64,000 nucleotides of DNA from Phycisphaerales bacterium (GTDB taxonomy: Bacteria > Planctomycetota > Phycisphaerae > Phycisphaerales > UBA1924): NCBI GenBank assembly GCA_027083355.1, contig JALWOY010000066.1, positions 1 through 64,000 of the forward strand. Reading direction: 5' to 3'. A model generated the notes under the pieces. That model was given only the letters and a program-made list of their open reading frames with translations, was not told where the DNA came from and did not search any database. The position numbers were made by a program, and so were the translations under genes. Position 1 is the first letter of the stretch, and each line of letters starts with the position of its first letter. Positions 25,966 to 37,754 of the stretch are shown in pieces.

Positions 25966-26775
25966 TCACACGTTCCGCATGACCTTCACCGCCCGGTACA
26001 AACCCGCGATCTGCTCCCGGTCGTACACCCGCGGGGCGTAGCGGTTGTTGATCGGCTGAAGACGGATACGCTCGGCCGTCCCGTCGCGGTATTCGAAATA
26101 GACGCGTTTGAATGTCGTCTCGTCGTCGAGCGCGAGCCGGGCGAAGCAGTCGTCCCCGTCGGTGATGGGCCGCGCCGGGCTGAAGATCACGATGTCGCCC
26201 TCGCGGTAGTCCGGCTCCATCGAATCACCAACCACCCGCGCCGCGAACGCGTCCGGGTCGTGCAGATCCGGGCAGCGCACGTATTCGTCCGCCACGCGCG
26301 CGGGGTAGCCCATGTCCGTGAACCCCTGCGGGTAGCCGGCCGAAACCTTGTTGATCAGCGGCACCTCGAACGGCAGATCGACCGGGGTGGGCCCGGCCGG
26401 GTCGAGCCGTTCGATGAGCGCCCGGAGTTCGCCGCTGCGGAAGGCCAGATCGAGCCCGGTCCGCCCGCCCTCCCCGGAGGCGAGTTTCGTGACAAGCCGG
26501 CGCAGCTCGGCGGAACGGGAGAGGTCCCGGAGGACCGGATCGGGGACACGGTCCCAGGCGCCGGCGCGGACGAGCCGCCCGTCCTCGATGTGCAGCGCCG
26601 ATTCGATCCGGGCGAGCATGTCCTGGCTCGGGGCCTTGGTGCCGTGCTCGATCGCCCAGAGGTAGCTCTTGGCGCAGCCGCAACGGTCGGCGAGTTCGCG
26701 CAGCGAGAGCCCCGCCGCTTGTCGATGCTCGCGGATGATCCCGCCGAGCGCCGCCTGTTCAGGTGACATATCCAC
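25966..26775 (-). CDS. CI/LexA-like repressor: XRE helix-turn-helix plus S24 peptidase domain
   Basis: The protein has 269 residues. Residues 10-65 are an XRE helix-turn-helix (LSLRELADRCGCAKSYLWAI then EHGTKAPS). Residues 130-265 are an S24-type self-cleavage domain with Ser185 in VVGDSMEPDY and Lys223 in TFKRVYFE; a possible Ala-Gly cleavage site is at 146-147. This architecture is that of phage CI repressors and related stress-sensing repressors that are cut when RecA is activated. It is divergent from the HTH/ABC/terminase genes across a 264-base region with a palindrome at 26987, so it probably represses them and itself. The start is the GTG at 26775; an ATG six bases later is equally possible. 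Confidence 0.9.
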   Translation of the reverse strand: MDMSPEQAALGGIIREHRQAAGLSLRELADRCGCAKSYLWAIEHGTKAPSQDMLARIESALHIEDGRLVRAGAWDRVPDPVLRDLSRSAELRRLVTKLASGEGGRTGLDLAFRSGELRALIERLDPAGPTPVDLPFEVPLINKVSAGYPQGFTDMGYPARVADEYVRCPDLHDPDAFAARVVGDSMEPDYREGDIVIFSPARPITDGDDCFARLALDDETTFKRVYFEYRDGTAERIRLQPINNRYAPRVYDREQIAGLYRAVKVMRNV

Positions 26776-26986
26776 CCCCGTTTCCCACAGAATCGGCCCC
26801 CCGGCACCGTGCCGACGCGGATCGAACCGGTCCGTCGACCGGGCCTATCCCCCGCAGACCGGGGATTCCGCTTGCGACGGTTCCTCCCCCGTCTGGACGG
26901 GATTTGTGCCGGATGTCGCGTGATGTGCGCTGAATCGTGTCACTTCCGTACAAAAGCCTTGCGTGTCGTTCTCCGATGAGTAGAAC

Positions 26987-26997
26987 ATACGTCGTAT
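26987..26997. promoter_or_regulatory. Candidate operator palindrome in the divergent region
   Basis: ATACGTCGTAT is a perfect 5-1-5 palindrome, extended outward by GAAC on the left and GTTC on the right with one extra base. It lies between the divergent repressor and the HTH gene, about 50 bases before the latter's ATG. Such a site is what a dimeric CI-like repressor would bind; this is inference. Confidence 0.45.
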
Positions 26998-27039
26998 CGT
27001 TCACTGAATAGTGTCCACACAAATAAGGAGATTCAAGAC

Positions 27040-27750
27040 ATGAACACACAAATCTGTGACTCGAAGGGCAAAGCCCCCACTTCGGGGCGTCTCCCCGTGG
27101 ACGGTGCGGAGGTTGGGGGTCGGCAAAAGGCACGGCGGCTCGATCAAACTTCAAACGCAACACAGTATAATACCGATCAAAACGAACACAAGCCGATTCC
27201 CCAGCCTGTCGTGGTCAGGCCCGACCGCGTACCCGCCCGTACCAGACCGCGAAGGCGATCAGCCGCGTTCTCGGCGGACTCTCCCGATCTCCGTCGACGT
27301 GCCCGCCGGGAGTACGCCGAGATGCTCGTCGATCACGCCGCGTGGCTGACGCCCGAAGACCGTGAACTGGTGACGTCGGTATTCGGGGAGGGGCTGAGCG
27401 TCGCGGCGTATGCGCGTCGTCGGCGTGAGAAGGAGTCACCCATTCCCGTCCGCACCGCCCGCAGGCGGCTCCGGAAGATCGTCGCCCGGCTGCTCTCGCC
27501 GCGGTTCGTGTTCGTCATCGAGAACCGCAAGGCATGGCCCGCGACGCGCCGGCGGGCGGCGATGGCATGCGTCGTACAGGGACTCTCGCTCCGGGAGGCC
27601 GCCGCGAAGATCGGGGTGAGCCTCCACGCGGTCCGGCGGCACATGGACGCCGTCGAGGCACTCTACCTCGCCTCGGTCGGGCAGGCCGGCAAGACCGCCA
27701 AACAAACGGGCGATCGAGACGGTGAACGGGCCGCGGGGGACTGGCGATGA
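27040..27750 (+). CDS. Helix-turn-helix DNA-binding protein heading the terminase island
   Basis: The protein has 236 residues. The first 70 are Arg/Pro-rich and likely disordered. Residues about 85-150 and 165-215 each resemble sigma-70 region 4 or small-terminase-like helix-turn-helix units (LTPEDRELVTSVFGEGLSVA; GLSLREAAAKIGVSLHAVRR). The start has AAGGAG nine bases upstream. The stop overlaps the ABC-acetyltransferase start in ATGA. It could act as a transcription activator, or as a DNA-recognising small terminase subunit for the large subunit encoded downstream; neither is proven. Confidence 0.72.
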   Translation: MNTQICDSKGKAPTSGRLPVDGAEVGGRQKARRLDQTSNATQYNTDQNEHKPIPQPVVVRPDRVPARTRPRRRSAAFSADSPDLRRRARREYAEMLVDHAAWLTPEDRELVTSVFGEGLSVAAYARRRREKESPIPVRTARRRLRKIVARLLSPRFVFVIENRKAWPATRRRAAMACVVQGLSLREAAAKIGVSLHAVRRHMDAVEALYLASVGQAGKTAKQTGDRDGERAAGDWR

Positions 27751-29075
27751 ACTCGCGGGTGTTGCGGGCGGTGGCGCCGTTCGGCGTCGCGCCGGACGAT
27801 CTGATGCTCGCGGCGGATGATGACGCCGAAGCTGACGCGTGCCGGCTCCTCGACGCGCTCGGCGAAGCGCACAGCCCGGGGCGGGTGGCACTGATCACGG
27901 GACCGAGCGGGTCGGGCAAGTCGCGGCTGCTGTCGGCGGTGCGGGAACGTCTCGGGGCGTCCGGTGCGAATTTCGCCGACACGGCGCGATGCCGTCCCGA
28001 TCCGGGGCGTGCGTTGGCGGGGCATCGAGCATCCGTGCCCGTCGAGGCGTGGTTGGGGCTGCTCTCGATGGCGGGGCTGGCCGACGCCCGGCTGCTGCCC
28101 GTCCCCGCGGGGAGGCTGTCGGAGGGCGAGCGTGCCCGCCTCCGGCTCGCCCTCGCGATGTCCAGCGTGCGTGCGGGCGGGTTCCTGCTGATCGATGAGT
28201 GCTGCTCGACGCTCGACCGGTGCACGGCCGCCGGCGTCGCCGCGACGATCCGCCGGTGGGCGACGCGATCGGGGGTGTGTGTCATCGCGGCCGGGGCACA
28301 CGAAGACCTCCCCCGCCTGCTCGGGCCGGATCTGGTCGTGCGGTGCGAGCCGGGCGTGCCGAGGCGGTTCGAGCGGGGGCCGGGGGTGGCCCGCGCCGGA
28401 CGGATCCGGGTCGAGGGTGGGACGGCGGCGGACTATGCGGCGTTGGCCCGGTATCACTACCGACCCGGCCGGCCCGCATCGCCGAGCCGGATTCTGCGGG
28501 CCGTGGCGCCCGGGGGTCGGCTCGCCGGTGTGCTGGTGGTGTGTCACCCAACGCTGAACGGCTCGTGGCGCGGGCTGATCTGGCCCGGCCGGTACACCGG
28601 GGCCTGCAAACGGGCGATCGCCCGCCGGCTCAACCGCGAACTGCGGCGGATCAGCCGGGTGATCGTCGACCCTCGCGACCGGGGGCGAGGCATCGCTCGC
28701 CGGCTCGTGCGCGCGTATCTGGATGACCCCCTCACCCCCGCGACCGAGGCGGTCGCCGCGATGGGCCGGCTCTCGCCGTTCGGGGCGTCGGCGGGGATGA
28801 CGGCATATCCCGTGCCGCCCCGGCCCGCGGACGACCGGCTGGCGGACATGCTCGACGCGGCGGGGGTCGAGCCGTGGGAGATGCTCGACCCGGCGCGGGT
28901 CGAACAGATGCGCGGCGACGGGCTGATCCGGCGGGAACTGGGGGTGTGGGCGAGAACGGTGTTTGCATCGATCCCCAAGCCGCGGCGGGCGTGGGCGGAC
29001 GTGTTCGACCTCGCCCCGCTGGCGGCGGCAAGGCTGTGCGCACCACCCGTGGCCTATGGGTGTGTGGCGGAGTGA
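27747..29075 (+). CDS. ABC-type ATPase fused to a predicted GNAT acetyltransferase
   Basis: The protein has 442 residues. The ATPase half (about 1-215) has Walker A GPSGSGKS, an ABC signature-like LSEGERARLRLALA, Walker B GGFLLIDECCSTLD and an H-loop-like AAGAHEDL. The second half (about 225-400) resembles GNAT acyltransferases: ADYAALARYHYRPG, strands around GVLVVCHP, and the CoA-binding-like VDPRDRGRGIARRLV. This layout matches the family described as an ABC-type ATPase fused to a predicted acetyltransferase domain (COG2401), best known from archaea. No membrane part exists, so it is not a transporter. In a phage-like island beside a terminase it might modify DNA, as the GNAT-fold Mom protein of phage Mu does, or modify proteins. 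The target is unknown. Confidence 0.82.
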   Translation: MNSRVLRAVAPFGVAPDDLMLAADDDAEADACRLLDALGEAHSPGRVALITGPSGSGKSRLLSAVRERLGASGANFADTARCRPDPGRALAGHRASVPVEAWLGLLSMAGLADARLLPVPAGRLSEGERARLRLALAMSSVRAGGFLLIDECCSTLDRCTAAGVAATIRRWATRSGVCVIAAGAHEDLPRLLGPDLVVRCEPGVPRRFERGPGVARAGRIRVEGGTAADYAALARYHYRPGRPASPSRILRAVAPGGRLAGVLVVCHPTLNGSWRGLIWPGRYTGACKRAIARRLNRELRRISRVIVDPRDRGRGIARRLVRAYLDDPLTPATEAVAAMGRLSPFGASAGMTAYPVPPRPADDRLADMLDAAGVEPWEMLDPARVEQMRGDGLIRRELGVWARTVFASIPKPRRAWADVFDLAPLAAARLCAPPVAYGCVAE

Positions 29076-29082
29076 TGAAGAG

Positions 29083-29157
29083 CAGCAAAGCAACAAATCG
29101 GGAAAGCAGCAAAGCGGATGGGTGCCGGTGGTGTTCGTCTGATGTGTTGCTTTGCTG
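29083..29157. repeat. 13-bp perfect inverted repeat between island genes
   Basis: CAGCAAAGCAACA at 29083-29095 is matched by its exact complement TGTTGCTTTGCTG at 29145-29157, separated by 49 bases that repeat the left arm imperfectly (CAGCAAAGC near 29107). It lies in the 127-base gap after the ABC-acetyltransferase gene and could form an RNA hairpin or be a protein-binding or recombination site. Confidence 0.6.
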
Positions 29158-29202
29158 ATTTTCCGCTCTGCTGTTTTCAATCCCCCCCGCGGGAGTCGAG
29201 AG

Positions 29203-29418
29203 ATGACGAAAAAACAACCGCGTGTGCCGCGACCGGCGCCGCCGCCCGAGCCGGGGGAGTTGCCCCGGACGCTGACGTTCGCGCTGACGGCCGACGAACG
29301 GGCGGCGGTGCTGCGTGTGCTGCGGCGGTACGACTCGGACCGTGCCCTGGCGCTGCGGATGGCGCTGGGGATCGCGGAACAACAGACCGGCAAATCGGCA
29401 AAGCCGCGAACCGGTTGA
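29203..29418 (+). CDS. Small protein before terminase
   Basis: The protein has 71 residues. After a Pro/Arg-rich lead of about 25 residues comes a helical stretch LTADERAAVLRVLRRYDSDR then ALALRMALGIAEQ, reminiscent of small helical regulators or a minimal ribbon/helix DNA-binding unit. No family is assigned. It lies 25 to 64 bases before the terminase, depending on the terminase start, so they are probably in one operon. Confidence 0.6.
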   Translation: MTKKQPRVPRPAPPPEPGELPRTLTFALTADERAAVLRVLRRYDSDRALALRMALGIAEQQTGKSAKPRTG

Positions 29419-29442: not shown

Positions 29443-30996
29443 TTGTTGCCGGTTTCACGTCCCCCCAACGGGGCAAGACCTTTGAACGAATCGAGAGATG
29501 TTGACAGCGGGATCGGTCCGAGGCCGACGACTCCCGGGGCGCTGCACGCCTGGCTGTCGGAGTATCTGGATCTGCGTGTGCCGACGCGTCCACTGCTCGA
29601 CGGGCACGACGCGCCGTTCGATTATCTGTGCCATGCGTTCTTTGATACATCCCGGCCGGTCGGGGGCGAGGGCGGCGCGGGGCTTTCAACGCCGAGCGAC
29701 GCGGTGGTCTGGGCGAACCGGGGCGGGGGCAAGACGTTTCTGGGTGCGGTGGCCACGCTGCTGGATCTGGTGTTCAAGCCCACGATCGAGGTGCGGATTC
29801 TCGCCGGATCGCTCGACCAGGCGAGGCGGATGCACGCCCACCTGCGCACGCTCTTCGAGGGCTCGGAACTCTTCCGCGAGGTCGAGGGGCGGATCACCGA
29901 GAAGCGGCTGCGCCTCCGCAACGGGTCGAACGTCGAGCTGCTCGCCCAGAGCCAGACGTCGGTCCGCGGGACGCGCGTGCAGAAACTGCGTTGTGACGAG
30001 GTCGAGCTGTTCGACCCGGACGTGTGGGAGGCCGCCCAGCTCACGACGATGAGCAAGCAATGCGGCGACGTGTGGGTGCCCGGGACGATCGAGTGTCTCA
30101 GCACGATGCACATGCCCTACGGGCTGATGTACCGCCTGGTGCGGGAAGCGGGCGAGGGCGCCCGCCGGCTGTTCAAGTGGGGCGTGGTGGACGTGCTGGG
30201 CCCGTGCGGCCCGGCGCATGAATGCGAGACGTGCACGCTCAAAGACGACTGCGGCGGGCGGGCCAAGCGGCGTGACGCCGAAGGCGAGACACCCGGGCAC
30301 CTGCCGGTGCTCGACGCGGTCCGCCTCAAGTCCCGCGTGGGCGAGGGGACATGGCAGGCCGAGATGCTGTGCACCAGACCCCGGCGTGACGATTGCGTGC
30401 TGCCGGAGTTCGACCGCGATCGGCACGTGATCGACGCGGGGCCGGCGGCGGGGGATCAACGCTGGATCGGCGGGATGGATTTCGGCATCCGTGCGCCCAC
30501 GGTCATCCTGTGGGCGTCGGTCGACGGGGCGGGCGTGGTGCGTGTGTTCGGCGAGCGCGTGGTCGCTGGCGAGATCGTGACCCGGCACGCCGAGGCGATC
30601 GTGTCGGGCGGCTCGGGCCCGTTGTCGCCGCTGCCGGTGCCGGAGTGGATCGGCGTCGACCCGGCTGGGCGTCAGCGGAGCGAGCAGACCGGGGTGAGCG
30701 CGGTGGAGGTTCTGCGGAAGGCGGGGCTCGTCGTGCGGGATCGGCGGATGGGGCTGAACGCGGGGCTGTCGCTGATCCGCGCGCGTCTTCGGCCGGCGAG
30801 CGGTCCGCCGACGCTGCTGGTGCATTCGTCGTGCGAGCGTCTGATCGAATCGCTCCAGCGGTACCGTTACCCGCCGGACCAGCCGGAGAGCCTGACGCCG
30901 CTGAAGGACGGGTCGGACCACGCGGTCGACGCGCTGCGGTACATGATCCAGAACCTCGACGCGGGGTACACGACGAGACACGGCCGGTATGTGTAA
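29443..30996 (+). CDS. Phage-type terminase large subunit
   Basis: The protein has up to 517 residues. The ATPase motor has Walker A WANRGGGKTFLG (near residue 92) and Walker B KLRCDEVELFD (near 185). The nuclease domain shows acidic residues in GGMDFGIRAPTVI, WIGVDPAG and DGSDHAVDALRYM, the last being the characteristic end of TerL nucleases. A cysteine cluster CGPAHECETCTLKDDCGG in the middle may bind zinc. TerL packages phage DNA into capsids. No ATG exists near the N terminus; the start is a TTG at 29443 or 29482. No portal, capsid or tail gene follows, since the next gene is on the opposite strand and unrelated. Confidence 0.88.
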   Translation: MLPVSRPPNGARPLNESRDVDSGIGPRPTTPGALHAWLSEYLDLRVPTRPLLDGHDAPFDYLCHAFFDTSRPVGGEGGAGLSTPSDAVVWANRGGGKTFLGAVATLLDLVFKPTIEVRILAGSLDQARRMHAHLRTLFEGSELFREVEGRITEKRLRLRNGSNVELLAQSQTSVRGTRVQKLRCDEVELFDPDVWEAAQLTTMSKQCGDVWVPGTIECLSTMHMPYGLMYRLVREAGEGARRLFKWGVVDVLGPCGPAHECETCTLKDDCGGRAKRRDAEGETPGHLPVLDAVRLKSRVGEGTWQAEMLCTRPRRDDCVLPEFDRDRHVIDAGPAAGDQRWIGGMDFGIRAPTVILWASVDGAGVVRVFGERVVAGEIVTRHAEAIVSGGSGPLSPLPVPEWIGVDPAGRQRSEQTGVSAVEVLRKAGLVVRDRRMGLNAGLSLIRARLRPASGPPTLLVHSSCERLIESLQRYRYPPDQPESLTPLKDGSDHAVDALRYMIQNLDAGYTTRHGRYV

Positions 30997-33214: not shown

Positions 33215-35839
33215 TCATCGCCCCCGCGTGCGCAGTTTGCCGCGCATGCGTTTCTTGGGCAGTTTCCTGGGCACGACCCCGCCTGGGAATTTCGCGGCGA
33301 GTTCCTCCGGGGTGAGTTTGTCCTCGGCGGGGAGCTCGGCGGCGTCGTCGAATCGGTTGCGTGCCTCGGCGACGCCGGTGACTTCGACGGGGGGGCGGCC
33401 CCCGGTGGGTTCGGGCCGCCAGTTTTCCGGCTTCTCGCTGGGTTTGAAGTCGGGGTATCGGCGTTCCGGGATCTCGGCGTTGATGAGCAGTTCGATCTGT
33501 GTGAGCAGCTGGCCCTGCTCGGGCGTGACGAGGCTCCACGCCACGCCCTCACGGCCCGCGCGGGCGGTCCGGCCGATGCGGTGGACGTAGATATCCGGGT
33601 CGTCGGGCAGGTCGTAGTTGACGACGTGGGTGATGCCCTCGACGTCGAGCCCGCGCGAGGCGAGATCGGAGGCGACGAGGACGTTGAGCTCGCCGTGGCG
33701 GAAGTTCCGCATCGTCTTGTTCCGCTGGCCCTGGCTCATGTCGCCGTGGAGGGCGTGGGCCTCGATCTTCTTCCGCCCGAGGTACCGCACGACGTCGTCG
33801 ACGGTGCGCTTCATGCGGCAGAAGACGAGGGTGAGGTCCGGCTCCTCGTGCGTGAGGATGTGGGCGAGCATCCGTTTTTTGTCCCACGCCTGGACGGGGA
33901 TGTGGTGCTGCTTGACCATCTCGACGGTGAGCGAGCCGGAGGTGACGACGAGCCGCTCGGGGTCCTGCATGTGCCGGCGTGCGAGGTGCTCGATCTCGTC
34001 CGAGAGCGTGGCCGAGACGAAGATGGTCTGGCGTTGCTTCGGGCACTTGCCGAGGATTTTTTTGATGTCGTCGCGGAAGCCGATATCGAACATCCGGTCG
34101 ACTTCGTCGAGGACGGCAAACTCGACGCCGCCGAGGTGGAGGAGCCTTCGTTCGATCATGTCGAGGACGCGTCCGGGCGTGCCGACGATGATCTCGGGCC
34201 CGCGTTCGAGTTTTTTCGCCTGGGTGTGGATCTTCTGCCCGCCGTAGACGGCGCAGGTTTTCAGCCCGGTGTGCCGGCCCAGCTCGGTCAGATCGTCGGT
34301 GATCTGCACGGCGAGTTCGCGGGTGGGCGCGAGGATGATCGCCTGCATCGCCTTGCCCGGGGTGGCCATCTGGAGGATGGGCAGGCCGAACGCGGCGGTT
34401 TTGCCGCTGCCGGTCTTGGCCTGACCCAGGACGTCCTTGCCCGTGAGCGCGAGCGGGATCAGCTCGCCCTGGATCTTCGTCGGGTGCTGCCAGCCCGCTT
34501 CGTTCAGCGCACGGATGAGCGGCTCGGACAGGCCAAGATCAGCGAAGGTCTTTTCAACGTTGAAGACGTGCTTGCGGGCCTCTTCGCTGAGGGGCGTGAC
34601 GGTCCGCAGGCCGTGGTGCGAGGGTTCGATGTCCTCGTCGTCGGCGTCGGATTGCGGGGCGTCGGTCGGAGCACCGGCGGCGGCCTCGGTCGCGGTGGGT
34701 TCACCCTCGGGCTTGCGCCGCCGCCGACGCCGGCGTCTGCGTTTCTTCTTCGGCGGGTTCTGCGGGGAGGCCTGCGGGTCGTCGCCGACCGCTGGGGTCC
34801 CCTCGACCGTGTGCGGATCGGACTTTGCTTCGATTTCACCCGCGGCCTGCGGTTCGCCCGGCCCGGCGTCCTGCTCGGTGTTCTCGTTCACGTGCGTCGT
34901 TCCTCTTTGTTCTTGCGGACCCGCCGCGGGCCGGGACCGGCCCGCCGCTGTGTCGTCCCGCCCGCGTCCGCTTTCTTCGTTCGGACGCGCCGTCAACGCT
35001 GAACCATAGGCTCCGGCGTGCTCTGCCGGGGTTTTCGGCGGCACGGAATCGGCCAACTCCATGAGGATCATGTGCTTCATCAGCGTCCCGGCGGCACTCG
35101 TCCCGGCGGCCAGCCAACCGGGGCGGCCGTCACGCCAGGCCTGCTTGATGACGATCTGCTTGAGGAACGCGCCGACGGGATTCATGGCGAGTTTCCACGC
35201 GTTCGTGCGCACGCCGGCGGCGTGCAGGCTCGCGGCGGAGGTCCGCGCGTGGCCCGCCTGTTTGGCGAGGTGATCGGCGAAAGTCTCGAACGAGTCGTGG
35301 CGGAGCACGCCCGGCAGAGCCACGATCCGCCCCGCCGCGGGGTCGACCTCGAGCACGTCGTGCGGGTCGAGCCCGCCCCACCGGGCCGCGCCGCGCTCGA
35401 CGAGCGACCGGCGGACGAGGCGGGTCCGCCACTCGGGCTGCCACGCGTGGCCGAGCGGCCGGCCCTTGTACCACACCACCCGGCGGACGCGGGCCGCGGC
35501 GACGGCGGGGTCGTCCGATTCGACGAGTTCACGGATCGCCCCGGCGAGGTCGGGCATCACCGGCTCGTCGCTGTCGAGGTGCAAGACCCATTCGAGCGTG
35601 GCCGATTCGAGGGCGATCTGTTTCGTCCCGACATACCCGGCCCAGGGCCTTCGCAGGACCGTCGCGCCGAACGATTCGCAGATCTCGATGGTCCGGTCCG
35701 TCGAGCCGGAATCGACGGCGATGATCTCGCCGGCGATGTGCCGGACGCTCTTGAGCACCGCGCCGATCGTGGCCTCGTTGTCGCGGCAGATGGTGACCAC
35801 GCTGAGGGGCGGTGTGTGCTTGCTGTGGGTGTCTCGCAT
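33215..35839 (-). CDS. Glycosyltransferase family 2 fused in frame to a DEAD-box-like RNA helicase
   Basis: One uninterrupted frame of 874 residues from the ATG at 35839; a GTG at 35890 adds 17. Residues 1-265 are a WaaE-like GT2 (SVVTICRDNEATIGAVLKSV; AVDSGSTDRT; LHLDSDEP, the metal DxD). A disordered link contains KKKRRRRRRRRRRKPEGE. The helicase follows: Q motif region HPTKIQGELIP, AKTGSGKTAAFG, PTRELAVQI, LDEVDRMFD (DEVD instead of DEAD), SATLS, RGLDVEGI and HRIGRTARAG. A GTG at 34891 with AGAGGA upstream could start a separate 558-residue helicase. Either the two enzymes are made fused, or the helicase is mainly translated from the internal start. GT2 and the divergent LPS kinase suggest lipopolysaccharide work; the helicase suggests RNA unwinding. 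Confidence 0.85.
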   Translation of the reverse strand: MRDTHSKHTPPLSVVTICRDNEATIGAVLKSVRHIAGEIIAVDSGSTDRTIEICESFGATVLRRPWAGYVGTKQIALESATLEWVLHLDSDEPVMPDLAGAIRELVESDDPAVAAARVRRVVWYKGRPLGHAWQPEWRTRLVRRSLVERGAARWGGLDPHDVLEVDPAAGRIVALPGVLRHDSFETFADHLAKQAGHARTSAASLHAAGVRTNAWKLAMNPVGAFLKQIVIKQAWRDGRPGWLAAGTSAAGTLMKHMILMELADSVPPKTPAEHAGAYGSALTARPNEESGRGRDDTAAGRSRPAAGPQEQRGTTHVNENTEQDAGPGEPQAAGEIEAKSDPHTVEGTPAVGDDPQASPQNPPKKKRRRRRRRRRKPEGEPTATEAAAGAPTDAPQSDADDEDIEPSHHGLRTVTPLSEEARKHVFNVEKTFADLGLSEPLIRALNEAGWQHPTKIQGELIPLALTGKDVLGQAKTGSGKTAAFGLPILQMATPGKAMQAIILAPTRELAVQITDDLTELGRHTGLKTCAVYGGQKIHTQAKKLERGPEIIVGTPGRVLDMIERRLLHLGGVEFAVLDEVDRMFDIGFRDDIKKILGKCPKQRQTIFVSATLSDEIEHLARRHMQDPERLVVTSGSLTVEMVKQHHIPVQAWDKKRMLAHILTHEEPDLTLVFCRMKRTVDDVVRYLGRKKIEAHALHGDMSQGQRNKTMRNFRHGELNVLVASDLASRGLDVEGITHVVNYDLPDDPDIYVHRIGRTARAGREGVAWSLVTPEQGQLLTQIELLINAEIPERRYPDFKPSEKPENWRPEPTGGRPPVEVTGVAEARNRFDDAAELPAEDKLTPEELAAKFPGGVVPRKLPKKRMRGKLRTRGR
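34891..34906 (-). promoter_or_regulatory. Candidate internal ribosome site for a separate helicase product
   Basis: On the minus strand AGAGGA lies about nine bases before a GTG at 34891 that is in frame with the helicase. The protein from here starts VNENTEQDAGPGEPQ. This offers a way to make the helicase without the glycosyltransferase part. Confidence 0.5.
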
Positions 35840-35915
35840 GGGTCGCGTTTCGGATCGGCGATCGGTCTTTCCGGGCGCGTGCCGGGCCACGGATCGGTCG
35901 GGGAAAGACTAGGCT

Positions 35916-36815: not shown

Positions 36816-37754
36816 ATGACGACCGTTGCCGCTGACCAGATCGTGTTGCCCAAGCCGGGCAAGAACGGGTTTTCTTTCAAAGACTGCCGGGTCTATGTCG
36901 GCGATTGCCGGAAATGGTTGCCGAAGTTGCCGGCCGGGGCGTTCGATCTGATCTTCGCCGATCCGCCGTTCAACTGGAACCGGGACTACGACCGCCACGA
37001 GACGGGCGACGCCTGGGACGACAACCAGAGCGAGGAAACCTATCTCGATTTCACCCGGGAATGGCTCGACCTGTGCATCGAGCGGCTCGCCGCACACGGC
37101 TCGCTGTGGGTGAACATCCCGGACACCTGGGCGGCGGAGATCGTGGTGCACCTGAAACAGCGCGGGCTGCACATGGTCAACTGGTGCATCTGGCACTACC
37201 GATTCGGGCAGAACACCACGAGCCGGTTCATCAACTCGAAGGTCCACGTGCTCTATTTCATGAAGGACCCGTCGCACCCCGACCGCCGCTGGAACCCCGA
37301 GGCGGTGGCGGAGGTCTCCGATCGGCGGGCGATCTACGGCGACCCGCGGACGGAGAACAAGAAAGAGGGCTGGCTGCCCGCGGGCCATCGCGTGCCGATG
37401 GACGTGTGGTACGGCAAGTTCTGGGGCCGCATCCAGGGCAACAACAAGGAACGCCGGCACAAGCACGACAACCAGCTGCCCGAGGTCTATCTGGGGCGTG
37501 TGATCAACGCCTGCTCGCGGGAGGGGGATCTGGTGTTGGACCCGTTCCTGGGGTCGGGCACGACGGGGACGGTGGCACAGGCGCTCGGGCGTCGGTTCGT
37601 GGGCATCGAATATTCACGGGCGAACGCCGAGCACGCGCGCGACCGTATCAAGGCGGGGCCCTGGCGCATCGAGGAGATCAAGGGACAGCGTGGACTCTCG
37701 ACGGCGATCCACCCGCCCAGAGGCGGTCTGTGGGAAGGGAAACTCGGGACGTGA
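36816..37754 (+). CDS. Orphan beta-class DNA methyltransferase (N4-cytosine or N6-adenine)
   Basis: The protein has 312 residues. The catalytic motif IV is DPPF at residues 49-52 (FADPPFNWNRDYD) and the AdoMet motif I is DPFLGSGTTGTVAQ near residue 245, so motif IV precedes motif I as in the beta class (CcrM- and M.MboII-like). No restriction enzyme gene is adjacent, so it is probably a solitary methyltransferase for regulation or cell cycle, or the remainder of a restriction system. The GAxxDLIF(A)DPPFN start is typical of site-specific enzymes. It lies twelve bases after the kinase gene. The recognition sequence cannot be told from the protein. Confidence 0.9.
   Translation: MTTVAADQIVLPKPGKNGFSFKDCRVYVGDCRKWLPKLPAGAFDLIFADPPFNWNRDYDRHETGDAWDDNQSEETYLDFTREWLDLCIERLAAHGSLWVNIPDTWAAEIVVHLKQRGLHMVNWCIWHYRFGQNTTSRFINSKVHVLYFMKDPSHPDRRWNPEAVAEVSDRRAIYGDPRTENKKEGWLPAGHRVPMDVWYGKFWGRIQGNNKERRHKHDNQLPEVYLGRVINACSREGDLVLDPFLGSGTTGTVAQALGRRFVGIEYSRANAEHARDRIKAGPWRIEEIKGQRGLSTAIHPPRGGLWEGKLGT

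Follow-up and report, generated by a model that had tools for sequence, protein, structure and literature searches.

Gene Cassette of an ABC ATPase–GNAT Protein and a Terminase in Phycisphaerales: Candidate Packaging Half of a Gene Transfer Agent

Introduction

Few gene transfer agents (GTAs) are known, and they have several origins from different phages. The described systems closest to the one analyzed here—RcGTA, BaGTA, and the GTAs of Brachyspira, Desulfovibrio, and Methanococcus voltae—resemble it in being phage-derived, vertically inherited, tied to a host clade, and encoded in several loci with terminase, portal, and capsid genes. Our system differs from them in its SU10-type capsid, SPP1-type portal, ABC–GNAT(–ParB) proteins, and S24 repressor; here it is predicted from its genes and likened to them by description. 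According to a passage of PMC11841831, homology does not yet suffice to locate GTAs definitively. No published planctomycete GTA was found in our literature search; the consulted part of PMC7947584 mentions, for planctomycetes, only a prophage terminase of Zavarzinella.

The other described relatives are phage proteins in which a GNAT is coupled with an ABC ATPase. According to an excerpt of PMC7824862, which names pT24, an unknown acyl modification of a DNA base was predicted earlier for such pairs; the source given there is Iyer et al. 2013 (its reference 136). The general idea put forward in a sequence-only reading of our locus, modification of packaged DNA by an ABC ATPase–GNAT fusion, was thus already in print as a prediction.

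The window, i.e., the whole stretch of DNA analyzed, comprises 64,000 nucleotides of a Phycisphaerales bacterium (GCA_027083355.1, contig JALWOY010000066.1). Its cassette (Table 1) consists of a repressor of the self-cleaving S24 type, an HTH protein, the ABC–GNAT protein, a remnant ParB tail, and the terminase large subunit (TerL); the capsid gene is not adjacent to it.

Table 1. Features of the cassette and their positions in the window.
Feature	Position	Strand	Remarks
XRE + peptidase S24 (LexA/CI-type) repressor	25966..26775	-	Divergent from cassette; Peptidase_S24 6.9e-19, HTH_31 6.8e-12, phrog_4 repressor 5.5e-34
Divergent regulatory region	26776..27039	.	CGCTGAATCGTGTC (26928-26941) and CACTGAATAGTGTC (27002-27015), similar 14-base copies before the HTH gene
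HTH protein with sigma-70 region-4-like C-terminus, first cassette gene	27040..27750	+	Sigma70_r4_2 1.8e-5 (just under the Pfam cut-off), phrog_11138 7.6e-10
ABC ATPase half, soluble	27747..28361	+	Residues 1-205; Pfam/phrog matches, alignment, structural neighbors
GNAT half	28380..29075	+	Residues 212-442; HY 237-238; acyl-CoA loop R-x-x-G-x-G near 312-317
88-aa protein similar to the C-terminal part of the ParB-like protein found in other families	29152..29418	+	Cluster 11, 10/41 loci
Terminase large subunit TerL	29443..30996	+	phrog_2 4.9e-18; ATPase WANRGGGKT/CDE; nuclease D346, D406, D496

Domain Structure and Relatives of the Protein

The open reading frame of the ABC–GNAT protein occupies exactly positions 27747–29075 of the forward strand, starts with ATG, and encodes 442 amino acids, in which a soluble ABC ATPase is fused to a GNAT domain. 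The ABC half matched AAA_16 (1.1e-8), ABC_tran (3.3e-7), and SMC_N (5.2e-7) in Pfam and carries the Walker A (GPSGSGKS), signature (LSEGE), and Walker B (LLIDE) motifs. No transmembrane partner was noticed near the gene. Pfam matches of the GNAT half to GNAT families were all below the threshold (best E 0.005); its residues 218–353 matched phrog_886 with an E value of 3.7e-10. A structure search with the whole protein listed only ABC nucleotide-binding domains (best Z 17.9), and therefore the GNAT half was folded alone. The resulting AlphaFold2 model had a pLDDT of 91.9 and a helical C-terminus; its structural match list was filled with GNAT structures. Residues G52, S54, G55, G57, K58, H237, and Y238 were invariant in an alignment of 11 sequences, one phage protein included. 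Matches at E ≤ 1e-3 occurred in 83 of 101 genomes (the own genome and 100 relatives), which, together with the invariant motif residues, rules out a chance reading frame. Thus Pfam, phrog_886, the model, and the motifs bear out the fusion proposed in the sequence-only reading, and the terminase that it had placed beside the fusion gene is indeed encoded directly downstream.

Phage Mu Mom (8bv8), a methylcarbamoylase, was the enzyme with which the reading had compared the acyltransferase half. The likeness between the two lies in the GNAT fold and the HY motif. The model of the GNAT half matched crystal structure 8bv8 with Z 12.3 and rmsd 4.5; the 166 residues aligned were the most in any of the 50 rows listed, and many ordinary GNATs tied with Mom at Z 11.7–13.6. 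In the list of viral models, the Mom protein of FSL SP-031 (S4TTR0) ranked third (E 5.2e-5) and LP65 Orf128, a Mom relative, fifth. All 13 sequences of our GNAT set have the HY pointed out at the start of the acyltransferase half; it is shared with the Mom set, where it is part of HYS (6/6), and the S of HYS is not kept in the GNAT set.

The differences concern the ABC partner, which Mom lacks, and the acyl-CoA loop. Our GNAT set keeps the ordinary RxxGxG/A loop (R101, G102, and G104 invariant), whereas Mom proteins have PRNSES; the Mom-type loop with S124 (S124A is an inactive mutant according to the PDB title) is absent from the GNAT set. The match between GNAT and Mom profiles in hhalign was not significant, with a probability of 4.6% and 45 aligned columns around HY only. 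Fold neighbors of the GNAT half also included the protein N-terminal acetyltransferases RimI, Ard1, and NatA, which matched as well as Mom; no single GNAT family stood out, and the results contained no clear hit to acetyltransferases acting on peptides or aminoglycosides. The proposed relationship is therefore partly supported: the flagged GNAT and Mom have the same fold and a common HY and are not shown to be one family, so that kinship with Mom in particular is not upheld by the profile comparison, the loop, and the tied Z scores.

The protein belongs to the phage family phrog_11143/phrog_886—the fused form and the stand-alone GNAT, respectively—with members in pT24, Jace, SSU5, nickie, RHph_X66, and BUCTxx99. 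The best viral structural match was a relative from Leptospira phage LE4 (E 2.9e-15). Of 50,697 phage records searched by tblastn with the flagged protein, 33 had a matching ABC gene; with the Jace protein as the query, 72 phage records were matched, pT24 among them. Jace encodes ABC and GNAT as one protein; SSU5, nickie, and RHph_X66 have separate genes, the GNAT (phrog_886) coming after the ABC ATPase. The usual phage order is ParB, ABC, GNAT, and then terminase and portal (nickie, RHph_X66, BUCTxx99, Javan141, BiggityBass, and Pmp13), the ParB position being occupied in nickie and Javan141 by a gene labelled ParB or methylase. A ParB or DNA-binding gene also adjoins in Jace and EastWest, with the large terminase not adjacent within the stretch viewed.

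The planctomycete proteins share with these phages the ABC and GNAT domains, the invariant HY, the RxxGxG loop, the terminase neighbor, and, in part of the loci, a ParB-like neighbor. They differ in being chromosomal and probably S24-controlled, in the terminase having no adjoining portal, and in the apparent loss of the ParB domain in the window's family. A ParB-like partner was found in 10 of 41 planctomycete loci (cluster 12), and the window has only the 88-aa remnant, whose likeness to the ParB C-termini of this cluster was judged by eye; the ParB domain itself appears to have been lost in the family.

Gene Content of the Cassette

The repressor bears hallmarks of self-cleaving LexA/CI proteins: the two residues of the predicted cleavage site A146–G147 are conserved in 35/35 and 34/35 sequences, and S185 and K223 in 34/35 each. 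Homologues were present in 35 of 41 loci and, by label, absent from those of families f8 and f9. From the established behavior of LexA/CI-type proteins, control of the cassette by DNA damage may be supposed by analogy. The two similar 14-base copies in the divergent region are a hint at possible repressor sites; a search for operators between repressor and cassette in 35 intergenic regions gave no firm site, the k-mer AGTGAACA being found in 8 of the 35.

The start codon of TerL is uncertain, as conservation begins at residue 28. Its catalytic residues were intact in at least 39 of 42 aligned rows, with the invariant columns taken from 13 sequences; the gene of genome G069 contains a stop. Cysteines 255, 261, 264, and 270 were invariant in 13/13 aligned planctomycete TerL sequences and form a probable zinc site.

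Occurrence in Planctomycetes

In the window's family (f1, own genome included), the ABC–GNAT protein was matched at E ≤ 1e-19 in 52 of 61 genomes; seven gave no match and two gave only weaker ones. Other families of the order had matches at E ≤ 1e-15 in 19 of 40 genomes, with family f2 nearly empty (1/12). A phylum-wide draw yielded matches in 59 of 392 genomes, with strong ones in the order and in ten genomes of families f7–f9 of the same class.

The window and 40 regions from genomes chosen for their ABC–GNAT match, 41 loci in total, were clustered by gene. TerL was encoded in all of them, ABC/GNAT in 39, and an HTH homologue at the equivalent place in 25. Fusion of ABC and GNAT is the usual state in f1; in f3–f6 the two mostly occupy adjacent reading frames, behind which lie a gene for a ParB-like protein and one for a putative small terminase (cluster 6). 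We chose the latter label from the position of the gene; no family match of cluster 6 was significant.

Cellular genes lie on both sides of the cassette, and a complete adjoining set of head, tail, and integration genes was not found there. No integration or replication genes were noticed in the scanned flank parts of the cassette and head loci. The recurring cellular flanks include DUF6677 (16/41 loci), cluster 4 (18/41), HTH17 (13/41), a small membrane protein, UbiA (labelled by reading), and ferredoxin. The cassette of f1 genomes lies between the same neighbors in both orientations, and in several loci of f3, f4, and f5 it adjoins DUF6677 or the recurrent small membrane protein. Genes 3' of TerL in three relatives were mostly cellular (ABC permease, MeaB, and methylmalonyl-CoA mutase) or had no phage match. 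The cassette is a bacterial locus kept across genomes, not part of a prophage, a point that the sequence-only reading had missed.

A collection of named genomes contained 174 TerL relatives. The best 80 were labelled Phycisphaerales, Phycisphaeraceae, Phycisphaerae, Tepidisphaera, or Planctomycetota, with one labelled Cyanobacteria (L119). ABC/GNAT was matched at E ≤ 1e-10 in 69 of these 80 loci; ten of the other 11 start at most 500 bases from a sequence end, and the remaining one is L183. Among 17 TerL relatives on viral contigs, one was clearly close (45% identity). Contig L097 from IMG/VR encodes a planctomycete-like GNAT followed by an apparently truncated TerL reading frame and may be chromosomal DNA called viral.

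Five f9 genomes (L229, L232, L233, L234, and L237) keep TerL without ABC/GNAT; the three TerL-only genomes of this family tested for it (G254, G304, and G352) have the capsid gene described below, so ABC–GNAT is not indispensable everywhere. In L232 the terminase gene adjoins a gene reading like dnaA. Family f30, which belongs to another planctomycete class, has a fused ABC–GNAT protein of 423–439 aa directly upstream of a different terminase (L240–L243); its two genomes tested have an SU10-type capsid gene, and the PF05133 portal was not detected in them. The neighbors in L241 read like arginase and adenylate cyclase, and a portal is not next door.

Head Genes and Joint Inheritance

The head genes are encoded in a separate locus with the order: small gene, portal, scaffold-like protein, major capsid protein (MCP), p3, p14, p4, and p7. 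Of 24 chosen genomes with a cassette, 20 had one copy of the portal (SPP1_portal, PF05133), which also matched in 2 of 14 controls. The MCP belongs to SU10_MCP (PF17236), this genome's copy matching with an E value of 8.9e-93 (phrog_1328, 1.8e-85); it shares this family with SU10-type tailed phages and differs from them in that the head locus lacks a complete phage gene set. In this genome the portal and capsid genes lie on contig C126 with p3 beside them; p3 was found in 13 of 22 genomes, every one of them capsid-positive. On shared contigs, cassette and head locus are mostly 10–170 kb apart, with ~690 and ~980 kb in two f8 genomes.

Searches for the PF17236 capsid gene were positive in 38 of 52 genomes and negative in all 14 controls. 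The gene was present in 35 of 39 genomes with the cassette and in 3 of 13 without it (Fisher p 1.4e-5), the genomes being hand-chosen and their cassette status assigned by the author from the ABC–GNAT searches. Genome G038 was scored as cassette-minus because no ABC–GNAT was found, yet it probably has TerL (L183, CP054186). The cassette-plus genomes without the capsid gene were G001 (88% complete), G002 (74% complete), G080, and G081; in the last two, neither the portal nor the capsid protein was detected. Tail genes were not found in this genome; the tail-region protein p12 occurred in 5 of 31 genomes, none of them in f1, and other tail candidates were mainly in f5 and f6.

The TerL tree, from which sequences shorter than 400 residues were left out, grouped each of f1 (27/27), f4 (3), f5 (4), f6 (5), f8 (3), and f9 (6) as monophyletic with support of 0.72–1.0; vertical descent was judged by comparing these clades with the family labels. 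Distances of TerL correlated with those of the MCP (Mantel r 0.804, n = 31) and the portal (r 0.813, n = 29), with 0 of 999 permutations reaching these values in either case; within f1 alone, r was 0.604 and 0.689, respectively. Such a correlation is predicted by vertical co-inheritance of one system. The terminase, portal, and capsid genes are conserved together and, judged from the clades, are inherited vertically with the host.

Some copies are damaged. The portal of G060 contains a stop, and the capsid genes of G019 (L292), G038 (L293), and G086 (L294), representing two families, are split near codons 55–73 by an insertion of ~11 kb. By our reading of the sequences, the G086 insertion encodes its own protease-capsid-like protein of 632 aa and helicase-like and sigma-like proteins. 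These features suggest a phage or satellite targeting the capsid gene of the head locus.

Other sources of head genes were considered and rejected. A portal on contig C157 (weak PF04860 match, a pattern seen in 4 of 61 genomes) is not the missing half; it is part of an ordinary prophage, which encodes a terminase, portal, capsid, and tail of its own. No searched genome but this one had a match above the cut-off for the tape-measure family PF10145; the matches lie on C157 and C167 (second strong match, C167:31762-32355). The C157 prophage (L092, L096) also encodes a ParB-methyltransferase-like protein, and parts of it are ~80% identical to copies in another family. Portals and capsids of ordinary prophages are rare, over the cut-off in 6 of 61 genomes each (HK97 capsid PF05065, 6/61). 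An SSU5-type portal (phrog_145) was matched in 1 of 41 genomes (E 0.0014), by a gene that we judged from its sequence to encode an HflK/C-like membrane protein. The SSU5-type capsid (phrog_212) gave 0/41, an uninformative result because the controls also had no match.

Discussion

We consider it fairly probable that the cassette forms the packaging half of a phage remnant that was domesticated, is inherited vertically, and is probably under SOS control; this remnant is a candidate GTA of the Phycisphaerae. The domain make-up, the intact catalytic motifs, the co-occurrence of cassette and capsid gene, the family-level clades, the TerL–capsid co-inheritance, and the lack of a capsid gene beside the cassette were all computed. 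Counted against this reading are the missing tail genes, the distance between head and packaging loci (10 to ~980 kb), the decayed parts, the two genomes with a cassette and no head genes, the TerL-only f9 genomes, the repressor not being universal, and the f30 MCP without a portal.

In the proposed mechanism, the LexA/CI-type repressor would hold the cassette silent until DNA damage, through RecA, leads to its self-cleavage. The ABC–GNAT protein, together with the ParB-like partner where it is retained, would then spend ATP acting on DNA; the GNAT domain would acylate DNA bases, in line with the base modification predicted in print (or, with less likelihood, a packaging protein), and would thereby mark or prepare the DNA. 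TerL, with the putative small subunit in other families, would cut this DNA and pump it through the SPP1-type portal into the SU10-type capsids from the separate head locus. As ParB, ABC, and GNAT stand beside the terminase in phages, the simplest reading is that their complex prepares DNA for packaging and that this step was kept in planctomycetes. If particles are formed, as we suppose, their cargo would probably be host DNA, i.e., they would be a GTA; this is suggested by the domestication and by analogy with GTAs as described in the consulted parts of PMC11841831 and PMC7947584.

The acceptor of the acyl group might instead be a protein—terminase, portal, or a host factor—which seems somewhat unlikely to us. 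The ordinary acyl-CoA loop and fold neighbors such as RimI, Ard1, and NatA fit a protein acceptor; that a soluble ABC ATPase and ParB-like proteins constantly accompany the GNAT in phages argues for DNA, as does the earlier prediction of base modification (PMC7824862, excerpt). A prophage remnant, ordinary or slowly decaying, whose cassette was left from integrations and has no present function, is quite improbable. Related genes are indeed common in phages, a few copies carry stops or insertions, and tail genes are missing from this genome, but the catalytic residues kept in nearly all TerL rows, the family-level clades, and the co-inheritance of TerL and capsid count against such a remnant. 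Single copies between the same cellular neighbors across families, downstream genes in three loci that are cellular or lack a phage match, and the rarity of ordinary prophage portals and capsids also speak against it.

Still less credence is given to a domesticated terminase working without virions in defense or chromosome processing, in which the GNAT would mark self DNA and the TerL nuclease would cut what is unmarked. The cassette does stand alone, the five f9 genomes keep TerL with neither ABC/GNAT nor nearby head genes, and Mom–endonuclease fusions are interpreted as restriction systems in an excerpt of PMC7824862; however, the capsid gene accompanies the cassette in most genomes and is present even in the three TerL-only f9 genomes tested for it.

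The reading of the cassette as the packaging half of a candidate GTA would, if true, make a class-wide planctomycete GTA with an SU10-type capsid and an SPP1-type portal an independent case of phage domestication. It would also assign a predicted, uncharacterized family of DNA-modifying proteins to packaging, a step at which their function is open to testing. A further-reaching version is speculative and, as a whole, unlikely: an ancient, independently evolved, damage-induced GTA whose packaging depends on ABC–GNAT base acylation marking host DNA and whose capsid gene is a target for insertion of mobile elements.

Additional Observations

Several phrog_886 proteins of phages (L003:4751-5641, L004:5820-6701, and L006:6401-7270) are labelled as ABC transporter subunits or ATP-binding subunits and are actually GNATs; the label appears to have been carried over from the neighboring gene. 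Downstream of the cassette, the window encodes on the reverse strand (33215-35890) a single reading frame of 891 aa that combines a family-2 glycosyltransferase domain with a DEAD-box helicase. An orphan N6/N4 DNA methylase (PF01555, 7.8e-45) is encoded on the forward strand at 36816-37754, ~6 kb downstream of the terminase.
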